A stretch of 64,000 nt of DNA from Arthrobacter bambusae (GTDB lineage: Bacteria; Actinomycetota; Actinomycetes; Actinomycetales; Micrococcaceae): contig NZ_JAUSSZ010000002.1 in NCBI RefSeq assembly GCF_030812595.1, positions 248,001-312,000 of the forward strand, in the 5' to 3' direction. The position numbers were made by a program, and so were the translations under genes. The notes beneath the pieces were generated by a model. The model did not search any database and was not told the origin of the DNA. It was given only the letters and a program-made list of their open reading frames with translations. Of this stretch, positions 25,038 through 34,574 are shown piece by piece; position 1 is the first letter of the stretch, and every line of letters starts with the position of its first letter.

Positions 25038-26570
25038 TTAGTGGCTGGCCACCGGGTGGACATCCAAGGCGAGTTCCTCCACGGCCGTTCCGGCAACTCG
25101 GCGGTCCCAGGCTTCGCGCACCGCGGGTTCGGTTGGCGGCGTCAGCACGGAGATCACAACGTAGACCAGCAGCGAGGCGCCCAGGCCCCAGTAGATGGGA
25201 TCGTTGGCGTAGACGCCGTCTTCGCTGGGGATGATCCCCGTGGCGTAAGCGATCAGCAACGCCAGGGTCAGCACCGAGCCGACGGCCATGGACCAGGCCG
25301 CGGCCATACCGGTTCCGCGCTTCCAGACCAAGCCACCGAGGATGGCAACCAGGAGGCCGCCCACCAGGATGTCGTACGCGATGGTCAGCGCCACCACGAC
25401 GTCTTGCGCCGCCATGGAGATCAGCACGGCCAGGATGCCCAGTCCAAGGACCCAGTAGCGGTTGGCCTTGACGTCGTGCTCGGGGTTCTCGGTGTCGTTG
25501 GTGTTGATCGTCTTGCCGAACCAGCTGGCCACGAACGGGACCACGTCGGCGCGGGCAACGGTGGCGGCGGCGATGAGGGCTCCGGAAGCGGTGGACATCA
25601 TGGCCGCGACCGCGGCGGCCATGACGAGGCCGCCGATGCCGATCGGCAGGATGTGGGTGGCAACCTCGGCGTACACAACGTCCTTGCCAAGGGCCTTCAC
25701 GTCGATGTTGGGCAGCGCCACGCGGGCGGCAAGTCCGATCAATGCGCCGGCGACGCCGTACAGGACACAGTAGATTCCGGCAGTGGCGCCGCCCCAACGG
25801 GCCACCTTGGGGGTCTTGGCGGTGAAGACGCGCTGCCAGATGTCCTGGCCGATCAGCAGGCCCAGGGTGTAGACCACGAAGTAGGTGATGATGGTCTGCG
25901 CTCCGATTCCGTCCAACTGGAAGAAGCTGGCGTCAACGCGGGCACGGATGCCGTCGAAGCCGCCCGCGGCGTTGAGCACGAACGGGAGCATGAGGAAGAA
26001 GATGCCGACTGTCTTGATGATGAACTGCACCTGGTCGGCGAGGGTAATGGACCACATACCGCCGATGGTGGAGTAGACCAGGACAATTGCGCCGCCGACG
26101 GCGATGGCAAGCCAACGCTCCCAGCCGAAAAGGACAACGAAGATGGTGGCGTAGGCGCCCGTGGACGTGGCGCACAGCATGAGGGTGTAGGCGAGCATGA
26201 CGATGCCGGAGGTCTGCGTGGCGCGCTGGCCGTAACGCAGGCTCAGCATCTGGGAGACCGTGTAGATCTTCAGCCGCTGGATGGTGCCGGCGAAAAGCAG
26301 GCTCAGGAGGAGCACGCCCGAGCCGATGGCGACTACCAACCACATGCCGGATACGCCGAACTTGTAGCCGAGGCCGACGCCGCCAACCGTTGATGCACCG
26401 CCGAGGACGACCGCGGCCATGGTTCCTGTGTAGAGCATCGGACCGAGGCGGCGCCCTGCCACCAGGAAGTCGCTGTTGTTCTTGGTGCGCGACTTGCCCC
26501 ACCAGCCGAAGGCCAGCATGGCGAGCAAATACACCACCACGATCGCAATATTGATGAACGAAGAGTCCAA
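25038..26570 (-). CDS. Sodium:solute symporter (SSS family)
   Basis: A 510-residue transporter with about 13 helices. The first helix begins SSFINIAIVVVYLLAML, followed by the family's GRRLGP turn and a GGASTVGGVGLGYKFG Na+-site helix. The substrate is unknown; relatives carry amino acids, polyamines, urea or carboxylates. TTG 26570 was chosen because AGGAG lies five bases upstream and the length then equals the family norm. An in-frame ATG at 26690 would add 40 polar residues whose codons have much lower third-position GC, which looks like leader rather than protein. It is divergent from the XRE-cupin regulator, its probable controller. Confidence 0.82.
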   Translation of the reverse strand: MDSSFINIAIVVVYLLAMLAFGWWGKSRTKNNSDFLVAGRRLGPMLYTGTMAAVVLGGASTVGGVGLGYKFGVSGMWLVVAIGSGVLLLSLLFAGTIQRLKIYTVSQMLSLRYGQRATQTSGIVMLAYTLMLCATSTGAYATIFVVLFGWERWLAIAVGGAIVLVYSTIGGMWSITLADQVQFIIKTVGIFFLMLPFVLNAAGGFDGIRARVDASFFQLDGIGAQTIITYFVVYTLGLLIGQDIWQRVFTAKTPKVARWGGATAGIYCVLYGVAGALIGLAARVALPNIDVKALGKDVVYAEVATHILPIGIGGLVMAAAVAAMMSTASGALIAAATVARADVVPFVASWFGKTINTNDTENPEHDVKANRYWVLGLGILAVLISMAAQDVVVALTIAYDILVGGLLVAILGGLVWKRGTGMAAAWSMAVGSVLTLALLIAYATGIIPSEDGVYANDPIYWGLGASLLVYVVISVLTPPTEPAVREAWDRRVAGTAVEELALDVHPVASH

Positions 26571-26875
26571 GGTGGCTCCTGAGGGTGACTGCGCAGAGCG
26601 CTTGGGGGTTCCGACGCCGGTTCGCTGGGTTTGGCTGCGGGTTGCGGAAGGTCTCTGCGCTGGTGAGTGGGGAGATGTAGTCTGTGACATGTGACTCACA
26701 AACAACACTTGTTGCCTATGAGAATACGTAGTGATGCGAGTAACAGTCAAGGCCCGGATCCGCACAGTGGTCACATTGGCGGTCCCCAAGCTAGCCATAA
26801 GGCCCTGCCAAGCGGGCCGTCCGGCTACTATTGCTGCAATGACAGGGCCGCGAATATGGCCTGAAAGGTTCGTGA
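26571..26875. promoter_or_regulatory. Divergent control region for the symporter and XRE-cupin genes
   Basis: On the minus strand, TTGACT (26745-26750) and TATTCT (26721-26726) with an 18-bp spacer form a promoter for the symporter. The symmetric CAAC-ACTT-GTTG at 26703-26714 lies right at the predicted start and is a good operator candidate for the divergently encoded regulator. The symporter leader would then be about 145 nt. No other feature was seen. Confidence 0.5.
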
Positions 26876-27451
26876 ATGAAGGCTCTCCCCGTTGAACCGA
26901 GCAACGTCCCCGTTGCCATCGGTTCCAGAATCCGCGCCGCCCGCCAATCGCAGCGGCTCACCATCGAGCAGGTCGCCGACGCCACCGGCCTGACCAAAGG
27001 GTTCCTGAGCCGTGTGGAGCGTGACTTGACATCGCCGTCGGTCGCTTCCCTTGTGACGCTTTGCCAAGTTCTTTCGGTGTCCATCGGAGACCTTTTTGCC
27101 GCACCGGAGACGCACCTGACCCGGCGGGACGATGGGCCCCGCATTTCGCTCGGCGGCCAGGGAATCGTGGAGCGCCTCCTGACTGCCAGATCGGAACGGA
27201 GGCTGCAGATCCTGCAGGCCACCATCGAGCCGGGCGGCCGGGGAGAAGCCGAGCTCTACGCCGTGGATTGCGACGTCGACGTCCTGCATGTAGTCAAGGG
27301 CCGCATCAAGCTGATCCTCACCAACGACGAGTACGAACTCGAAGAAGGGGACACCCTGTCCTTCCCGGGCCGCGAACCCCACACCTGGGTCAATCCCACG
27401 GACGAGCCCGTCGAGGTGCTCTGGATACTGGTGCCTGCAGCCAGCCGCTGA
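26876..27451 (+). CDS. XRE-family regulator with cupin domain
   Basis: A 191-residue protein with an N-terminal Cro/CI-type helix-turn-helix (TIEQVADATGLTKGFLSRVE, about residues 29-48) and a C-terminal cupin sensor domain (about 105-188) with VDVLHVVKGRIKLIL and DTLSFPGREPHTWVN. Proteins of this layout (PuuR-like) often sense amines, polyamines or amino acids. It is divergent from the sodium:solute symporter and probably represses it. The guanidinobutyrase/ThDP operon 4 kb away could also be a target, but no matching operator was found there. Confidence 0.85.
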   Translation: MKALPVEPSNVPVAIGSRIRAARQSQRLTIEQVADATGLTKGFLSRVERDLTSPSVASLVTLCQVLSVSIGDLFAAPETHLTRRDDGPRISLGGQGIVERLLTARSERRLQILQATIEPGGRGEAELYAVDCDVDVLHVVKGRIKLILTNDEYELEEGDTLSFPGREPHTWVNPTDEPVEVLWILVPAASR

Positions 27452-27560: not shown

Positions 27561-27728
27561 GATCCGTGCTGAACGCCGAAACAGGGCGACTGTAGCTTCG
27601 AGTCAAGGCAACTCGTCAAGGTCGGCACCGCGGTTGGTAATTCCCCAGGTACCAGGACCTGTTCGTTTTAAAAATGGTCTCGCCGTGCGGGCGCCATGGA
27701 GCGCCGTATATGCAGGAAGGCTCCCGAA

Positions 27729-29141
27729 ATGAACCCAGCATTTTTCAGCGTAGGGCTGGACGTCAACCCCCAGACCCTCGATCCGGGCTCCACAGCCTGG
27801 ATGCTTGCAGCATCTGCCCTCGTCCTCCTCATGACGCCAGGTTTGGCGTTCTTCTACGGCGGCCTGGTCCGGATGAAGTCCGTCCTCAACATCATGATGA
27901 TGAGCTTTGGCGCCATGGGTGTGGTCGCGGTCGTCTGGGCCTTGTGGGGCTACGGACTCGCGTTCGGGCCTGATACCCTCGGCGGCTTCATTGGAGACCC
28001 CTTCGCGAACTTCGGACTCACCGGCTTGGCCTCCGTGATTGGCGGGAAAGCGCCCGGGCTGCCGGACATGGTCTTCATAGGATTCCAAGCCACCTTCGCC
28101 ATCATCACGGTCGCCCTGATCAGTGGAGCCGTAGCCGAACGTGTTCGTTTCGGCCCGTGGCTCCTGTTTGCCGGCCTGTGGGTCACCATCGTCTACGCGC
28201 CTATTGCCCACTGGGTCTGGGGTGGCGGGCTCTTTGGATCCACAGGCATCATCGGCAGCAAGATTTCAGCCCTCGACTTTGCTGGTGGCACAGTCGTTCA
28301 CATGAATGCGGGCATGGCCGGGTTGATGCTTGCAGTAGTGCTCGGCAAACGGCTCGGCTTCATGAAAGATCCCAACATCCGGCCGCACAACCTCCCCTTC
28401 GTGATGCTCGGGGCCGGCCTGCTGTGGTTCGGCTGGTTCGGCTTCAACGCCGGTTCTGAACTGGCTGCCGACGGAATTGCAGCCCTTGCCTGGACAAACA
28501 CCCTTCTGGCAACGAGCGCCGCGCTCCTGGGCTGGCTGCTCATTGAACGGCTCCGGGACGGCCACGCGACATCGCTCGGCGCGGCATCAGGCGCCGTCGC
28601 GGGCTTGGTGGCAATCACCCCCGCGTGTGGGTTCGTGGACCCCGTGGGCGCCATCATCATTGGAATCGCCGCCGGGGCAGTCTGCGCACTGGCCATCGGG
28701 CTCAAGTTCAAAATCGGCTTGGACGACTCCCTCGACGTGGTTGCTGTCCACTTTGTCGGCGGCCTGTGGGGGACCTTGTCCCTCGGTTTCTTCGCCGTAC
28801 CCTCGGCCAAGACTCAAGGCGGCCTCCTCTACGGCGGAGGCCTGACCCAATTCTGGCCCCAAATACTGACGGCCATGATCGTTACGGTATGGACGGCGGT
28901 CATGACCACGCTGATTGGCCTCGCCATCCACAAGACGGTGGGCATGCGCGTCAAGGAGCACGAAGAGCTGGCGGGCATCGACATCACGGAGCACGCGGAA
29001 ACCGCCTACGAGTTGGCCATGGTGGGCGGATCGTTCAATCCCGGAGAACCACAGAACGGCAAGTCCGCCCCGAGTTCCAGCGGAGAGGAAGCCAGCTCTG
29101 ACGGGAAAACAGATCGGATCCACAGCAAGGCGTCGACGTGA
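27729..29141 (+). CDS. amt: Ammonium transporter
   Basis: A 470-residue, 11-helix Amt protein importing ammonium. Family segments are visible: MTPGLAFFYGGLVRMKSVLN (helix 1-2), GGTVVHMNAGMAGL with the first pore His, and VVAVHFVGGLWGT with the second pore His. The cytoplasmic C-terminal tail is long (about 70 residues, Ser/Glu-rich at the end). ATG 27729 follows AGGAAGG; an upstream in-frame start at 27696 is not supported. It is controlled by the two GlnR boxes 170-240 bp upstream and coupled to glnK. Confidence 0.94.
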   Translation: MNPAFFSVGLDVNPQTLDPGSTAWMLAASALVLLMTPGLAFFYGGLVRMKSVLNIMMMSFGAMGVVAVVWALWGYGLAFGPDTLGGFIGDPFANFGLTGLASVIGGKAPGLPDMVFIGFQATFAIITVALISGAVAERVRFGPWLLFAGLWVTIVYAPIAHWVWGGGLFGSTGIIGSKISALDFAGGTVVHMNAGMAGLMLAVVLGKRLGFMKDPNIRPHNLPFVMLGAGLLWFGWFGFNAGSELAADGIAALAWTNTLLATSAALLGWLLIERLRDGHATSLGAASGAVAGLVAITPACGFVDPVGAIIIGIAAGAVCALAIGLKFKIGLDDSLDVVAVHFVGGLWGTLSLGFFAVPSAKTQGGLLYGGGLTQFWPQILTAMIVTVWTAVMTTLIGLAIHKTVGMRVKEHEELAGIDITEHAETAYELAMVGGSFNPGEPQNGKSAPSSSGEEASSDGKTDRIHSKAST

Positions 29142-29479
29142 AGCTTGTCACGGCCATCGTGAGGCCGGAGCGGATCGATAAGGTCCGGGAAGCCTTGGAA
29201 CGCTTTGGAGTCAACGGGATGACGGTAAGCCACGCGAACGGCTACGGCCAACAACGTGGCCACGTGGAGGTATACCGGGGCGCGGAGTACAGCTCCGATC
29301 TCCTGCCCAAAATCCGGGTGGAAGTCCTGGCCGCTGACGATCTGGTGGACGGAATAGTGGAAGCCATCATCTCCGGTGCCCGTACCGGCCAGTTCGGGGA
29401 CGGCAAGATCTGGACCGTCGCGGTCTCCCAGGCGGTGCGCGTCCGGACCGGGGAGCGTGGCGCCTCCGCGATCAGCTAG
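29138..29479 (+). CDS. glnK: P-II nitrogen regulatory protein
   Basis: A 113-residue PII protein. The T-loop GYGQQRGHVEVYRGAEYSSD carries the Tyr that is uridylylated (or adenylylated in actinobacteria), and the C-terminal GDGKIWTVAV nucleotide-binding region is intact. It would bind Amt and shut it when nitrogen is sufficient. The GTG start overlaps the amt stop (GTGA), which couples production of channel and regulator. Confidence 0.94.
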   Translation: MKLVTAIVRPERIDKVREALERFGVNGMTVSHANGYGQQRGHVEVYRGAEYSSDLLPKIRVEVLAADDLVDGIVEAIISGARTGQFGDGKIWTVAVSQAVRVRTGERGASAIS

Positions 29480-29488
29480 GAAGACTGT

Positions 29489-29530
29489 GTTGGTGCCGCA
29501 CCTTTCGATAAGAGGGGGAGCGGCACCAAC
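29489..29530. terminator. Hairpin after glnK
   Basis: A perfect 11-bp stem (29489-29499 with 29520-29530) with a 20-nt loop, between the convergent glnK and permease genes. There is no T-run; probably a transcript-end hairpin. Confidence 0.5.
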
Positions 29531-29540
29531 ACTGCCATGT

Positions 29541-31529
29541 TCAGCCGACGTGCACCCACGGCCTGCGGGTGATGTCCGGTTCGGCTTCGCGCAGCACTTC
29601 GCGGGTTACCGGGGCGATCTCGCCCTCGCCGAAGAAGAGGAACTTGCTCAGGTTGGCGATGGGATTGCCTTCGGTCCAGCGGAAATAGATATGCGGCATG
29701 AGTCCGGTGACGTCGCGGATGTGAAGCAGCACTGCGGCCAGGGTATTGGGCACGTTGTTGCTGTGGATCTCCAGGATCTTGAAGCCGTGCCGGAGCTTGC
29801 CTTCCACCAGGAGTTCCTGCTCGAAGTCGGAGCTGTCATCCACGATGATCTCGATGAAGATCGCGTCGCTGTCTACTGGCAAGTGGTTTGCCTGCTGGGC
29901 GTGCTGCAGCTTCAACTGGTACCGGTCCGCGCTCAGTCGCTTAGGCTCATGCGCGATGATCCGGATGGGGCCTTCCTCGTTGGAGGCCGTGAATTCGAGG
30001 GCCATTTGGTCCATCTTGATGTGTGTGGCCCTCAGCTCGAAGGAGCGGCGTACCCTCGACGCGAAGCTCACCAGGACAATGCCGAGGATGAACAGGGCGG
30101 CGATCCTGATGCCGTCCGGGCGCTCCACCACATTGGCCACGGTGGTGTAGGCGAAGACGACGGCCACCACGCCGAAAGCGAGGGTCTTGGCCTTCTCCTT
30201 CTTCCTGCGTGCGGAGAGGGTTACCGCGATCGACGCCGAGGTCATGAGGACCAGGACGCCGGTGGCGTAGGCGCCGCCTTGGGCTTCCACATTTGCCTCG
30301 AAGACCAAGGTGATGATGAAAGCTACCGCGGTGAAGACCAGGACCAAGGGCCGCACGGCTTTGGTCCACGCCGGGGCCATGCCGAAGCGGGGCAGGTAGC
30401 GCGGCACGAGGTTCAACAAGCCGGCCATGGCAGAGGCGCCGGCGAACCACAGGATGGCGATGGTGCTCATGTCATAGAGCGTGCCGAAGCCGTCGCCCAG
30501 GAATTGGTGCGCAAGGAATGCAAGGGCGCGTCCGTCCGCTTTTCCTCCCGGCTGGAATTCGGCGGCGGGAATCAGGAACGTGGTGATGAAGCTCGAGGCC
30601 ACCAGGAAGGCGCTCATGATGAGTGCCGCCGTCGTGAGCAGTTTGTGGGTGCCGCGGATGCGGCCAACGGGATGCTCCTCAGTATCGCTGGGGCTGCCCT
30701 TGATCTGCGGCATGACTGCGACGCCGGTTTCGAATCCTGAGAGGCCCAGGGCAAGTTTCGGGAAGACCAGAAGCGCGATGCCCACCATGATTAAGGGGTT
30801 TCCGTGCTGCTGGTTCAGTGCGGCCCACCAGTCGGTCACCACATGTGCCTCGGTCACTACGTGCACCAAGCCGACCGCGACGACGACGGTGTTCAGCGCC
30901 AGGTAGATGCCCACCAGCACGACGGCGACGTTGATGGCCTCCTTGAATCCCCTGAGGAACACCACGCCGAGGCCTGCGATGAGGGCCAAGGTGATGGTGA
31001 TTTCCTGCCCGTGGAGCCATTCCGGCGCAAAGGGGTTTTCGATGGCATGGGCGCTCGCGTCGGCGGCCGAGAGGGTCATGGTGATCATGAAGTCCGTGGC
31101 GGCGAATCCCAGCAAGGCAAGCACGAAGAGCTTGCCGCCCCAGCGGGGGAGGAGCCGCTCGAGCATCGCGATGGAGCCTTCGCCGCGAGCGCTTTCGGCG
31201 GCGACCCGGCGGTAGACCGGCAGGGCGCCGAGCAAGGTGACGGCGACCAGGACGATCGTGGCCAGCGGTGAGACGATACCGGCCGCGAGGGCCGCAATGG
31301 CGGGCTGGTAGCCGAGGGTGGAGAAGTAGTCGACGCCGGTGAGGCACATGACCTTCCACCAGGCCTGGGGCGTGTGGTCTTCGTCAGGCTTGCCGTGTGG
31401 ACCCTGGCGCTTCCCCGACGTCTCAGGCATTCCGTCGAGCAGCCATCGCTTGAATTGGCTTTGGTTGGTTTCGCCCGCGGGGTTGCGCCGGTCAGTGGGT
31501 TCGGCAGGCGGCCTGGTCAGCGTTGTCAC
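29541..31529 (-). CDS. APC-superfamily permease, KimA-like (probable K+ importer)
   Basis: A 662-residue protein with about 12 helices (residues 70-480) and a soluble C-terminal domain of about 150 residues. The length, the [20 protein letters not shown] start of helix 1 and the large cytoplasmic tail resemble KimA/YdaO, a high-affinity potassium importer controlled by c-di-AMP in Bacillus, more than ordinary amino acid permeases. The GTG start has AAAGGA upstream. The 319-bp region before it shows no obvious c-di-AMP riboswitch. Some databases call such proteins amino acid transporters, so the substrate remains open. Confidence 0.72.
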
Positions 31530-31848
31530 GTGGTCCTTTCACGCAGCCTGGAAGCTGCTCCTGATGGAGCGTACGGGTGCGTCCGGGAGCGGATGGCCGT
31601 CTTTATGGAATCTTTACGCCTCCTGTGAGGGGAGTCACCTCGGTGCACGACGCATTTGATGTAGTTGTCGTGTGAGCGACATTGCGGAGCGAATGGAACC
31701 CCGATGTCGGGGTCGGCAGCGTCGTCTTTCGGGGAGTTGCCTGCTTTTTGCTGGCGTAAACAAGTGATGCATATAAGGCAACTTTGAGTGTATGATTGGT
31801 GTCACAGTCACGGTCCGACCCCACCTATCATCAAAGGAGTGGCGCATT
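31530..31848. promoter_or_regulatory. Divergent region between the KimA-like permease and guanidinobutyrase genes
   Basis: On the plus strand TTGCTG (31748-31753) and TATAAG (31772-31777), with an 18-bp spacer, form a promoter for the hydrolase operon; transcription would start near 31784. No riboswitch, operator palindrome or small gene was recognised in the rest. Confidence 0.5.
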
Positions 31849-32913
31849 TTGGAAGAGCTTCGTATTGAGGCCAATGGCAACCTTGGTCCTATTGATTCGG
31901 CCCGAATCCCGCGCTATGCCGGTGCTGCCACGTACGCCCGCTTGCCCCGTTTGGACCAAGTCTCCAAGGCTGACGTGACGGTGGTCGGCGTCCCCTTCGA
32001 CTCCGGAGTTTCCTACCGCCCGGGCGCCCGCTTCGGTGCCAACCATGTCCGTGACGCCAGCCGTTTGCTGCGCCCGTACAACCCGGCCTGGGACGTCAGC
32101 CCGTTTGAGAACATCCAGGTTGCCGATGCCGGCGACATGGCTGTGAACCCGTTCAACATCAATGAAGCCATCGAGACCATCCAGCAGAACGCACTGGACT
32201 TGACGGCCAACGGAAGCAAGCTCGTCACGCTCGGTGGCGACCACACCATCGCCCTGCCCCTGCTCCGCGCGGCCGCAGAACGCGCCGGTGAGCCCGTTGC
32301 CATGCTGCACTTCGACGCCCACCTCGATACCTGGGACACGTACTTCGGCGCCGAGTACACGCACGGCACCCCGTTCCGGCGCGCCGTTGAGGAAGGCATC
32401 CTCGACACCGAGGCGATCAGCCATGTCGGTACCCGCGGCCCGCTTTACGGCAAGAAGGACCTCGACGACGACCACCGCTTCGGCTTCGGCATCGTCACCT
32501 CGGCGGACGTGTACTACCAGGGCGTCCTGGAGACCGTGGCCAAGATCCGGGACCGCATCGGCAACCGCCCGCTGTACATTTCCGTGGACATCGACGTCCT
32601 CGATCCGGCCCACGCTCCTGGCACCGGCACGCCTGAAGCCGGCGGCATCACCAGCCGCGAACTCCTCGAAATCATCCGCGGATTCCGTGGCATGAACCTT
32701 GTGGGCGCAGACATCGTCGAGGTCGCACCGGCCTATGACCATGCTGAGATCACAGCTGTGGCGGGCAGCCACGTTGCCTACGAACTCGTGACCCTCATGG
32801 CCGACAACGCCGTTGAAGGCAATCGGCACGGCGCGCCGAACGGCTACGCCGCCCAGGCCCTTGGCCAGGAATCCCGGCGTCCTGCCGGTTTTGCCCCGGC
32901 GGTCACGAAGTGA
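31849..32913 (+). CDS. Ureohydrolase: guanidinobutyrase or agmatinase
   Basis: A 354-residue member of the agmatinase/arginase family, releasing urea from a guanidino compound. Mn-binding motifs: [21 protein letters not shown] and [22 protein letters not shown] 31849 has AAGGAG nine bases upstream. The ATG at 31792 would sit only about 8 nt after the predicted transcription start and has no ribosome site. The gene is coupled by GTGA overlap to a ThDP-dependent enzyme. That pairing recalls the arginine transaminase route, where 2-ketoarginine decarboxylase AruI makes 4-guanidinobutyraldehyde and guanidinobutyrase acts later. Guanidinobutyrase is therefore slightly favoured over agmatinase. Confidence 0.82.
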
Positions 32914-34574
32914 CGGACCAGCGCAATGGTGGGGACCTCGTCGTCGAGACCCTCGAGGCGCTCGGTGCGAAGACGGTTTTCGGAATCCCGGGCCAGCACG
33001 CCCTCGGCCTGTTCGATGCGATGGGCCGTGGCAATCTGCACTTCGTGTCCTCCCGTGTGGAGAACAACTCGGCTTTCGCTGCGGACGGTTATTCCCGTGC
33101 GACGGGCGAGGTCGGGGTGCTCTTCCTGTCCACCGGTCCGGGCGCGTTGACGTCCCTGGCCGGTTTGCAGGAAGCGTATGCGACCGGCGTGCCGATGGTG
33201 GTCGTGGCGAGCCAGATCCCCTTGGAAGGTTTGGGCGCGCGCCGCAAGGGCATGCTGCACCAGCTCGATGACCAGAAGGCCTCGGCCGCCAACGTCACCA
33301 AGAGCCAGCGCCTCATCCAGCACGCATCCGGGATTCCCTCGGCCATCCAGGATGCCTGGACCGAGGCCATTTCCTCCCCGCAGGGTCCGGTGTGGATCGA
33401 GATTCCACAGAATGTGCTCCTGGACCCCATCATGGTCCCGCCGGTGGAGGACGCCCTCGCTGAAGCGGCCGACAACCCGCCGCGCGTTGAGCTGATCCGC
33501 GAAGCCGTCAAATGGCTCTCGACGGCGGAGCGTCCGGCGATCATCGCCGGTGGCGGCACGCGCCGTGGCCGGGCCGAGAAGTCGCTGCTTTCGATCGCCG
33601 AGAAACTTCGTGCGCCGGTGATCTGCACGCCTGGCGGCAATGGTGCTTTCCCCTGGACCCATGAGCTGAGCCTGCAGTCCTGGATCGAAGACCGACACAT
33701 GACGGACGTCCTCGAGGACGCCGACGTGCTGATCGTCATCGGCTCCTCCCTCGGCGAAGTCACGTCGAACTACTTCACCTTCGAGCCGCGCGGGCGCATC
33801 ATCCAGATCGACGCCGAACCCCGGGTCCTGGAGTCCAACCGGCCCGGCCTGGGCATCCGCGCCGACGCCGGCCAGGCCCTTGCGGCCCTTGATGCTGCCT
33901 TGGACGAGGCGTTGTCGGCGTCGGCGACGGCACCGAACTGGCATGGCGTCACACCGGAAGACATGGTCAAGGCGTCCCTCGCCAAGGTCATGGCACGCCT
34001 CGAAGAGCAGGACCTCGGCAAGGAACTGAAGTTCATGGCCGATATCCGCGAAGCCGTTCCGGCAGACATGCAGACCTTCTGGGACATGACGATCTCCGCG
34101 TACTGGGCATGGAGCTGCTGGGATTCCCGTGAGGGCCAGTTCCACTCGGCACAGGGCGCCGGTGGCCTCGGCTACGGTTTCCCGGCGGCCATCGGCGGTG
34201 CCGTGGGGCTGGAAACCGTCGGCAAGCCGAGCCGAGTTCTCGCTGTATCCGGCGACGGCTCCTCGATGTACTCGATCTCCGAGCTCGCCACCGCCAAGCA
34301 GCACAACGTCCCGGTCACGTGGCTGATCGTGGACGACGGCGGCTACGGCATCCTGCGTGAATACATGGTGGGTGCCTTCGGCAAGGCTACGGCCACCGAG
34401 CTCGCCCGTCCGGACTTCGTGAAGCTCGCGGAGGCATTCGGCGTGCCGGCCCGCAGGGTTGCCCCGGAGGACATCGGGGACGCGCTCCGCGAAAGCTTCG
34501 CCGCGGACGGCCCCAACGTCGTCGTGGTTGAAACCCTCCTGAAGATGTTCGGCCCAACGCACCTGGGCGACTAA
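32910..34574 (+). CDS. Thiamine-diphosphate-dependent enzyme, possibly 2-ketoarginine decarboxylase
   Basis: A 554-residue protein with the three domains of the acetolactate synthase/decarboxylase family. The catalytic Glu lies in the [13 protein letters not shown] stretch near residue 50. The diphosphate-binding motif starts GDGSSMYS near residue 449. About 27 residues later the usual Asn-Asn is replaced by VDDGGYG. No FAD-binding helical insert is obvious. It starts with GTG overlapping the ureohydrolase stop. AruI (2-ketoarginine decarboxylase) is the best functional guess from context; a benzoylformate or other 2-oxoacid decarboxylase, or a lyase, is also possible. Confidence 0.75.

Follow-up and report, generated by a model that had tools for sequence, protein, structure and literature searches.

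A conserved gene pair for a hydrolase and a thiamine diphosphate enzyme in Arthrobacter bambusae, most likely part of a guanidino-acid module

In the 4.28-Mb assembly of Arthrobacter bambusae (GCF_030812595.1), two genes that overlap by four bases encode a hydrolase of the arginase family and a thiamine diphosphate (ThDP)-dependent enzyme. They lie in a stretch of 64,000 nucleotides on contig C2 (NZ_JAUSSZ010000002.1, positions 248,001 to 312,000), which was analysed here as a whole and is referred to as the window. The gene pair most likely belongs to a module for guanidino acids that is well conserved and represents a variant of the arginine transaminase route. Specifically, the two enzymes would act as the decarboxylase and the guanidinobutyrase of an arginine-transaminase-like route completed by an unlinked dehydrogenase, a reading as a catabolic guanidino-acid module to which we give a probability of roughly 0.45. 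In the open-licence literature searched, no assay was found for this clade of ThDP enzymes and no publication on the gene pair was recognised.

Conservation of the gene pair

The hydrolase frame ends at 32913 and the ThDP gene starts with a GTG at 32910, with the junction reading GAAGTGACGG; the GTGA overlap described in a first-pass annotation of this DNA is thus present as reported. The hydrolase start assumed there, the TTG at 31849, also holds. This codon is preceded by AAGGAG and opens a frame of 354 aa (37,977 Da), whereas the rival ATG at 31792, which would extend the protein to 373 aa, is located inside a -10-like TATGAT; for both reasons TTG 31849 is likely to be the true start.

Relatives of the ThDP enzyme were drawn from a genome collection, in which Arthrobacter supplied the nearest named relatives, and the best 80 of 326 were fetched and kept as 80 loci. 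Among these sequences, which are related by descent, the hydrolase gene is found upstream of the ThDP gene in 79 of 80, the exception being a second gene copy (L047) in Arthrobacter MYb23. The junction is a four-base overlap in 44 of the 79 loci and has script values from -1 to +6 in 31; in four, values above 1 kb were obtained, which are taken for script errors. A phylum-wide draw of 296 genomes gave a ThDP match at E<=1e-80 in 11, namely the genome itself, one of the same genus, seven of another genus (g7), which we take to be Streptomyces, and two remote ones. Identities in g7 are 58-60% in six genomes and 48% in the seventh, and an eighth genome of that genus (G171) showed no ThDP match at the same threshold. 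The pair is retained at every one of the seven g7 loci; the sodium symporter gene of the window's locus is present in four of them, and in six a PucR-type regulator stands in place of the XRE/cupin regulator. The pairing of hydrolase and ThDP enzyme is more than chance, and it is conserved in two bacterial families.

Some copies depart from this arrangement. On an Embleya plasmid both genes are present, far apart from each other. In one g7 locus (L105, 8774-10213) the ThDP gene has decayed (43% identity, with loss of the GDG and the following motif) and the hydrolase is still 75% identical. A 55-kb plasmid of Arthrobacter sp. NicSoilB11 (L108, 1-19650) carries a ThDP-MarR-MFS-ABC block twice, in inverted order and with identical protein accessions, and a hydrolase copy (57%) as well as a fragmented symporter copy appear degraded. 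Finally, Arthrobacter bambusae DP-A9 has two hydrolase-ThDP pairs on two contigs (L008 and L013), each 96-98% identical to the pair of the window; in L008, symporter and regulator were not found.

The hydrolase

Both proteins were compared with Pfam, with the cut-offs of NCBIfam models and with sequences of solved structure, and by these comparisons their folds are already fixed. The hydrolase is a member of the arginase/ureohydrolase family (PF00491, 318 bits against a cut-off of 22), and its closest solved sequences are the guanidinobutyrase GbuA (3nio, E 8.8e-82), the guanidinopropionase GpuA (3nip, E 4.3e-79), both of Pseudomonas aeruginosa, and the proclavaminate amidinohydrolase 1gq6. 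In PMC9772407, Arg72 of GbuA is described as capping the active site from the neighbouring subunit, where it could bind the substrate carboxylate, and a human enzyme of the GbuA type is described as hydrolysing guanidino acids, with agmatine hydrolysis not detected. Counted along the alignment, Arg72 corresponds to Arg94 of the window's hydrolase (LLRPYN), and this motif is kept in 79/79 loci. The closest solved relatives and the carboxylate-capping arginine place the protein in the GbuA/GpuA type, and it is most likely a guanidino-acid hydrolase, its preferred chain length being uncertain; the guanidinobutyrase-like assignment made at first pass is supported to this extent. In addition, the Zn-guanidinobutyrase of Arthrobacter sp. 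KUJ 8602, from the same genus and likened here by its size, reportedly has 353 aa and about 37.9 kDa, which fits the window's hydrolase.

Other hydrolase relatives have different surroundings, of which those in Tsukamurella, Embleya and Nonomuraea speak for the guanidino-acid pathway proposed below. Tsukamurella has an XRE regulator, the hydrolase (~63%), a permease, a C-N hydrolase and a protein of the flavin amine-oxidase family, a cluster that we take to resemble the arginine monooxygenase route. In Embleya, where the hydrolase match (~63%) crosses one TGA, an NCS1-like permease and a C-N hydrolase precede it. The Rubrobacter cluster, in which genes for a semialdehyde dehydrogenase, an alanine dehydrogenase and a protein of the aspartate aminotransferase family accompany the hydrolase, reads like a route from 3-guanidinopropionate to beta-alanine. 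In Nonomuraea, PucR, a 75% identical hydrolase and an NCS1-like permease are found together, with an aminobutyraldehyde-type dehydrogenase 2.8 kb away, and in Caballeronia the hydrolase is followed by an aldehyde dehydrogenase. Lastly, Paraburkholderia PGU19 (L154) carries in a row an AruI-family gene (858 bits), an aldehyde dehydrogenase gene and a GbuA-like hydrolase gene.

The ThDP-dependent enzyme

Three TPP domains, Glu51 and a Gly-Asp-Gly at 448-450 identify the second protein as a ThDP-dependent enzyme. Its ThDP motif contains Asp475-Asp476, at a place where other clades mostly show Asn-Asn, Asn-Asp or Asp-Asn. The Asp-Asp pair is found in all 80 fetched relatives, in the six intact g7 sequences, in Embleya and in one remote sequence (L106), and also in an unrelated ThDP enzyme that is distant in the tree (L162). 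Single changes occur as Asn-Asp in six sequences (L004, L107, L160, L172, L173 and L175) and as Asp-Asn in five (L166-L170). The second residue of this pair binds the metal, and aspartate is able to do so. The first-pass annotation had pointed to Asp-Asp as unusual. The residues are indeed there, and their reading as an oddity or a sign of new chemistry was rejected, because they recur in the unrelated L162 and single changes are common in other clades. By comparison of these sequences, Asp-Asp marks the clade, and there is no evidence in it for new chemistry.

With regard to NCBIfam, the enzyme lies below the cut-off of all 25 models listed, of 53 matched, and the best of them, PRK08266, has no named function (346 bits against 571). 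Its position was further addressed in a ThDP tree of 35 sequences, rooted at the midpoint and with several long branches, from which the decayed L105 and L171 (same gene as L107) were left out and for which L006 and L007 gave no match. The sequences of the window, g7 and Embleya form one group (100/100). AruI, the ThDP decarboxylase of the arginine transaminase route, falls in a separate group of seven sequences (100/99), six of them over the AruI cut-off, and the window's enzyme is outside it. Both groups belong to a larger group of 26 sequences (98/93) that excludes nine other ThDP enzymes, and the fork uniting them without L160 reaches only 84/76. The motifs PG-x-His and Leu-His-[Glu/Gln/Asp]-x-x-[Asp/Ser]-Gln are common to the window's clade and the AruI group and are partly present in other members of the larger group. 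In this tree the enzyme is not in the AruI family and forms a clade of its own, placed in the same larger region as AruI; it is probably a 2-oxoacid decarboxylase, and an AruI-like action is possible.

Arthrobacter MYb23 has a standard locus (L181) and, in addition, the second ThDP gene L047, 94% identical and with no hydrolase beside it, whose neighbours are a Rid-like gene and genes for an aldehyde dehydrogenase and a pyridoxal phosphate (PLP) enzyme. The PLP enzyme passes PRK07324 (547 bits, cut-off 476); the next models, GntC (329, cut-off 415) and VioD (234, cut-off 391), are not passed and are named for arginine-derived substrates. About 13 kb from L047, on the same contig, there are a 51% hydrolase paralogue, a symporter (55%) and class III aminotransferase-like and phosphotransferase-like genes, the overlap of the two stretches being deduced from their contig's length (361,099) and from M20 and permease genes common to both. 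In another genome (G218), genes for a flavin mononucleotide-dependent 2-hydroxyacid dehydrogenase and an aldehyde dehydrogenase are directly followed by a 37% ThDP relative. The settings in MYb23 and G218 agree with decarboxylation of a 2-oxo acid to an aldehyde by this enzyme. The Embleya ThDP copy, which adjoins permeases and PucR, counts against it. As regards AruI-family genes themselves, in two actinobacterial genomes (L178, 7939-10760; L179, 8085-10885) they are followed by a glutamate-dehydrogenase-like gene, an order that possibly represents a dehydrogenase and decarboxylase pair.

A shared box and a candidate regulon

The upstream region of the hydrolase and that of the regulator and symporter genes, about 5 kb apart, have in common a box, AACAnnTGwTGCnTA (Table 1), whose consensus in the regulator region is near-palindromic, GGCAACAnnTGTTGCC. 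The window contains two matches with at most one mismatch, against 0.11 expected, and none of 100 shuffles reached two; the genome contains no exact match besides these two. The symporter was found in 69 of the 80 loci and the regulator in 75, some of the misses being due to contigs whose start falls within the locus. When up to one mismatch is allowed and the window is included, the box is present upstream of the regulator in 66 of 75 loci and upstream of the hydrolase in 62 of 80; it occurs in 0/73 regions upstream of the downstream ABC transporter gene and in 0/74 upstream of the MarR gene. These counts, like those for the window and the whole genome, are not independent of the choice of the motif, which was picked from these same loci. 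The shared box is a strong lead pointing to a common regulon of the transporter and the enzyme pair. The regulator has a PuuR-like layout and scores 66 bits with the PuuR model PRK09943, below its cut-off of 211.

An extension of the regulon across the genome gave no reliable new member, since 13 further sites with one mismatch compare with 9 for the reversed pattern. A 31-base stretch of contig C10 (32947-32977, L217) holds two oppositely oriented box-like sites, each with one mismatch; a SnoaL-like gene and an NCS1-like permease gene lie downstream of it.

Table 1. Positions in the window of the gene pair, the associated genes and the shared boxes
Feature	Position	Strand	Basis
Probable guanidino-acid hydrolase, arginase family, guanidinobutyrase type	31849..32913	+	PF00491 318 bits; GbuA 3nio closest solved; ribosome-binding site; conserved upstream region
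ThDP-dependent enzyme, 554 aa, probable 2-oxoacid decarboxylase	32910..34574	+	Three Pfam TPP domains; own clade in tree
4-base GTGA overlap of hydrolase and ThDP genes	32910..32913	+	Sequence
-10-like TATGAT upstream of hydrolase	31791..31796	+	By eye; conserved upstream region
Shared box AACAAGTGATGCATA, upstream of hydrolase-ThDP pair	31759..31773	+	
Sodium:solute symporter, likely importer	Open reading frame 25038..26798, start probably 26690 or 26570	-	PF00474 98.8 bits; start codons
XRE/cupin regulator, PuuR-like layout	26876..27451	+	HTH_3 and Cupin_2
Shared box AACACTTGTTGCCTA, between likely symporter start and regulator gene	26704..26718	+	

Proposed pathway and alternatives

From gene order, conservation, protein families, the shared box and the unlinked genes described below, we infer import, regulation, substrate and order of steps as follows. 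The sodium symporter would import the substrate, and the XRE/cupin regulator would control the symporter and the enzyme pair via the box that they share. Decarboxylation of a 2-oxo acid, with 2-ketoarginine (5-guanidino-2-oxopentanoate) as the most likely substrate, would be the task of the ThDP enzyme, and an unlinked aldehyde dehydrogenase would oxidise the resulting aldehyde to 4-guanidinobutyrate. The hydrolase would split the latter into 4-aminobutyrate (GABA) and urea, to be processed further by an unlinked GABA transaminase and urease. Candidates for the unlinked steps are encoded in the genome. A PucR-like gene on contig C13 stands in a row with genes for an aminobutyraldehyde dehydrogenase (649 bits, cut-off 615; 531 against 909 with the stricter equivalog TIGR03374) and a GABA transaminase (815 bits, cut-off 639), and a urease alpha subunit is encoded as well. 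Only one hydrolase of the window's type is present, the sole other match at E<=1e-10 being the formimidoylglutamase HutG, which is over its own cut-off. With the PLP enzyme (aminotransferase) beside L047 as a query, only partial matches of 26-33% were obtained in the genome.

The arginine transaminase route (AruH, AruI, KauB, GbuA) likewise combines a ThDP decarboxylase with a guanidinobutyrase. The system in the window differs from it in having a ThDP enzyme outside the AruI family, and a symporter and an XRE/cupin regulator of its own, and in that no dehydrogenase or transaminase was found adjacent to the pair. A route of this type, suggested by the first-pass annotation, is plausible in the light of the Paraburkholderia row; membership of the ThDP enzyme in the AruI family was not supported.

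Several observations weigh against the proposed pathway. The AruI model PRK07524 (NF005712) is second-best for the ThDP enzyme, with 321 bits against a cut-off of 500. This score says little, because over 198 genomes of the phylum the model has a match at E<=1e-80 in 172 and exceeds its cut-off in only 4; identification as AruI by profile score was rejected on this control, in which many ThDP paralogues score alike. Moreover, the Glu of YGEI/YAEI, present in 6/7 sequences of the AruI group, is Ile in the window's enzyme, and recognition of the guanidinium group must therefore differ from AruI, if it takes place. In the hydrolase, Tyr184 occupies, as counted on the alignment, the place of GbuA Met161 and GpuA Tyr157, residues said to set chain-length preference in work ascribed to Lee et al. 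(2011), so that a shorter guanidino acid is possible; the Tyr is as in GpuA, and three residues before it the window's hydrolase has Trp, not Asn. The two genes also occur apart: the Nonomuraea stretch fetched with its hydrolase contains no ThDP gene, in a plasmid collection searched at E<=1e-60 hydrolase relatives appear in 74 records and ThDP relatives in 3, and the stretches read around four ThDP sequences (L107, L172, L173 and L175) show no hydrolase or dehydrogenase homologue. Aldehyde dehydrogenase reference proteins gave no match in the window at E<=1e-6, nor did aminotransferase reference proteins, in agreement with the earlier remark that neither gene is adjacent. That these genes are not adjacent says little in favour of a new pathway, given that aruHI, kauB and gbuA are scattered in P. 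aeruginosa as well. Further points against the proposed pathway are the agmatinase models, both passed by the hydrolase (PRK02190, 314 bits, cut-off 302; equivalog TIGR01230, 221, cut-off 174), and a flavoenzyme on contig C5, 58% identical to that of Tsukamurella and beside a permease, which may offer a ThDP-free way to 4-guanidinobutyrate.

The last two points each sustain a different explanation. The agmatinase scores would suit a plain agmatinase beside an unrelated ThDP gene. In a control with six hydrolase relatives, TIGR01230 was passed by 6/6, including one beside AruI, which falls four bits short of PRK02190, and those in guanidino-acid neighbourhoods, and PRK02190 was passed by 4/6; for this reason the models do not separate the activities, and an assignment by model name was dropped. 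As the carboxylate-capping arginine, the gene pairing and the box are all conserved, we hold a plain agmatinase to be highly improbable. The flavoenzyme, in turn, would agree with a hydrolase serving 4-guanidinobutyrate that comes from arginine 2-monooxygenase and an amidase, or from uptake in soil, with a co-regulated ThDP enzyme that decarboxylates or ligates some other 2-oxo acid. Its role is putative, however, no homologue of the Tsukamurella C-N hydrolase was found in the 17 kb around it, the only part of the genome searched for one, and such a scheme leaves the ThDP pairing in two bacterial families unexplained; it appears unlikely to us.

A possibility of another kind, likewise unlikely in our judgement, is that the order of steps is reversed, the hydrolase converting 2-ketoarginine to 5-amino-2-oxopentanoate and urea, and the ThDP enzyme decarboxylating this product to 4-aminobutyraldehyde. 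This would explain the adjacency of the genes and why an aminobutyraldehyde dehydrogenase suffices. Sinorhizobium meliloti offers a possible analogy, in which a ureohydrolase and an AruI-like ThDP enzyme take part in arginine catabolism as proposed for the window: according to PMC7268258, the substrates of SpeB2 include 4-guanidinobutyraldehyde, 2-ketoarginine and 4-guanidinobutanoate, whose hydrolysis it catalyses, and the activity of the AruI homologue IlvB1 is sevenfold higher with 5-amino-oxopentanoate. Conversely, the Paraburkholderia dehydrogenase gene, placed between those for decarboxylase and hydrolase, fits the standard order. A guanidino substrate that textbook pathways do not cover, for example a hydroxylated acid or one derived from D-arginine, handled by a ThDP enzyme of new specificity, would be consistent with the separate ThDP clade, with the PLP neighbour of L047, nearest to GntC and VioD after its own model, and with a title cited in PMC11271267, in which an Arthrobacter enzyme studied as D-arginase (that of KUJ 8602) is identified with a Zn-guanidinobutyrase. 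Direct evidence for any such substrate is absent, and we regard this explanation as quite improbable. In its broadest form, the proposal would be that the Asp-Asp ThDP enzymes of Micrococcaceae and Streptomycetaceae represent a new type of decarboxylase (or ligase) acting on a guanidino or amino 2-oxo acid of their own, and that symporter, hydrolase and ThDP enzyme constitute an undescribed actinobacterial guanidino-acid pathway, which we consider conceivable and rather doubtful.

Related loci and annotation

In P. aeruginosa, the PA1416-PA1421 block, in which PA1417 is a ThDP decarboxylase and PA1418 a sodium symporter, may be similar to the locus in the window, with a different regulator. 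In a mexT mutant table of PMC12607905, the values for PA1416 to PA1420 and for gbuA (PA1421) are negative throughout.

In the annotated records examined, hydrolases of the window's type are labelled agmatinase and the ThDP partner bears only a generic name. The agmatinase label is probably wrong, guanidino-acid hydrolases being the probable assignment. The candidate regulon of transporter, hydrolase, ThDP enzyme and box makes the substrate testable, and its identification would help to correct the annotation of a pair shared by numerous relatives of Arthrobacter and by a second actinobacterial family.

Neighbouring genes

Between the regulator and the pair (27696-31529), the window contains genes for an ammonium transporter, a PII protein and a permease, which were rejected as parts of the module, the ammonium transporter being found in 18/80 loci and the permease in 30/80. 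Between the PII gene and the hydrolase, a 662-aa membrane protein (29541-31529) gave no Pfam or NCBIfam match at E 0.001 and is assumed by us to be an APC-type permease. The downstream MarR and MFS genes, present in 73/80 loci each, were also tried as members of the module and are considered neighbours, given that the MarR gene has no box and that identity is lower in most loci, ranging from 46 to 96% for MarR and from 58 to 97% for MFS.

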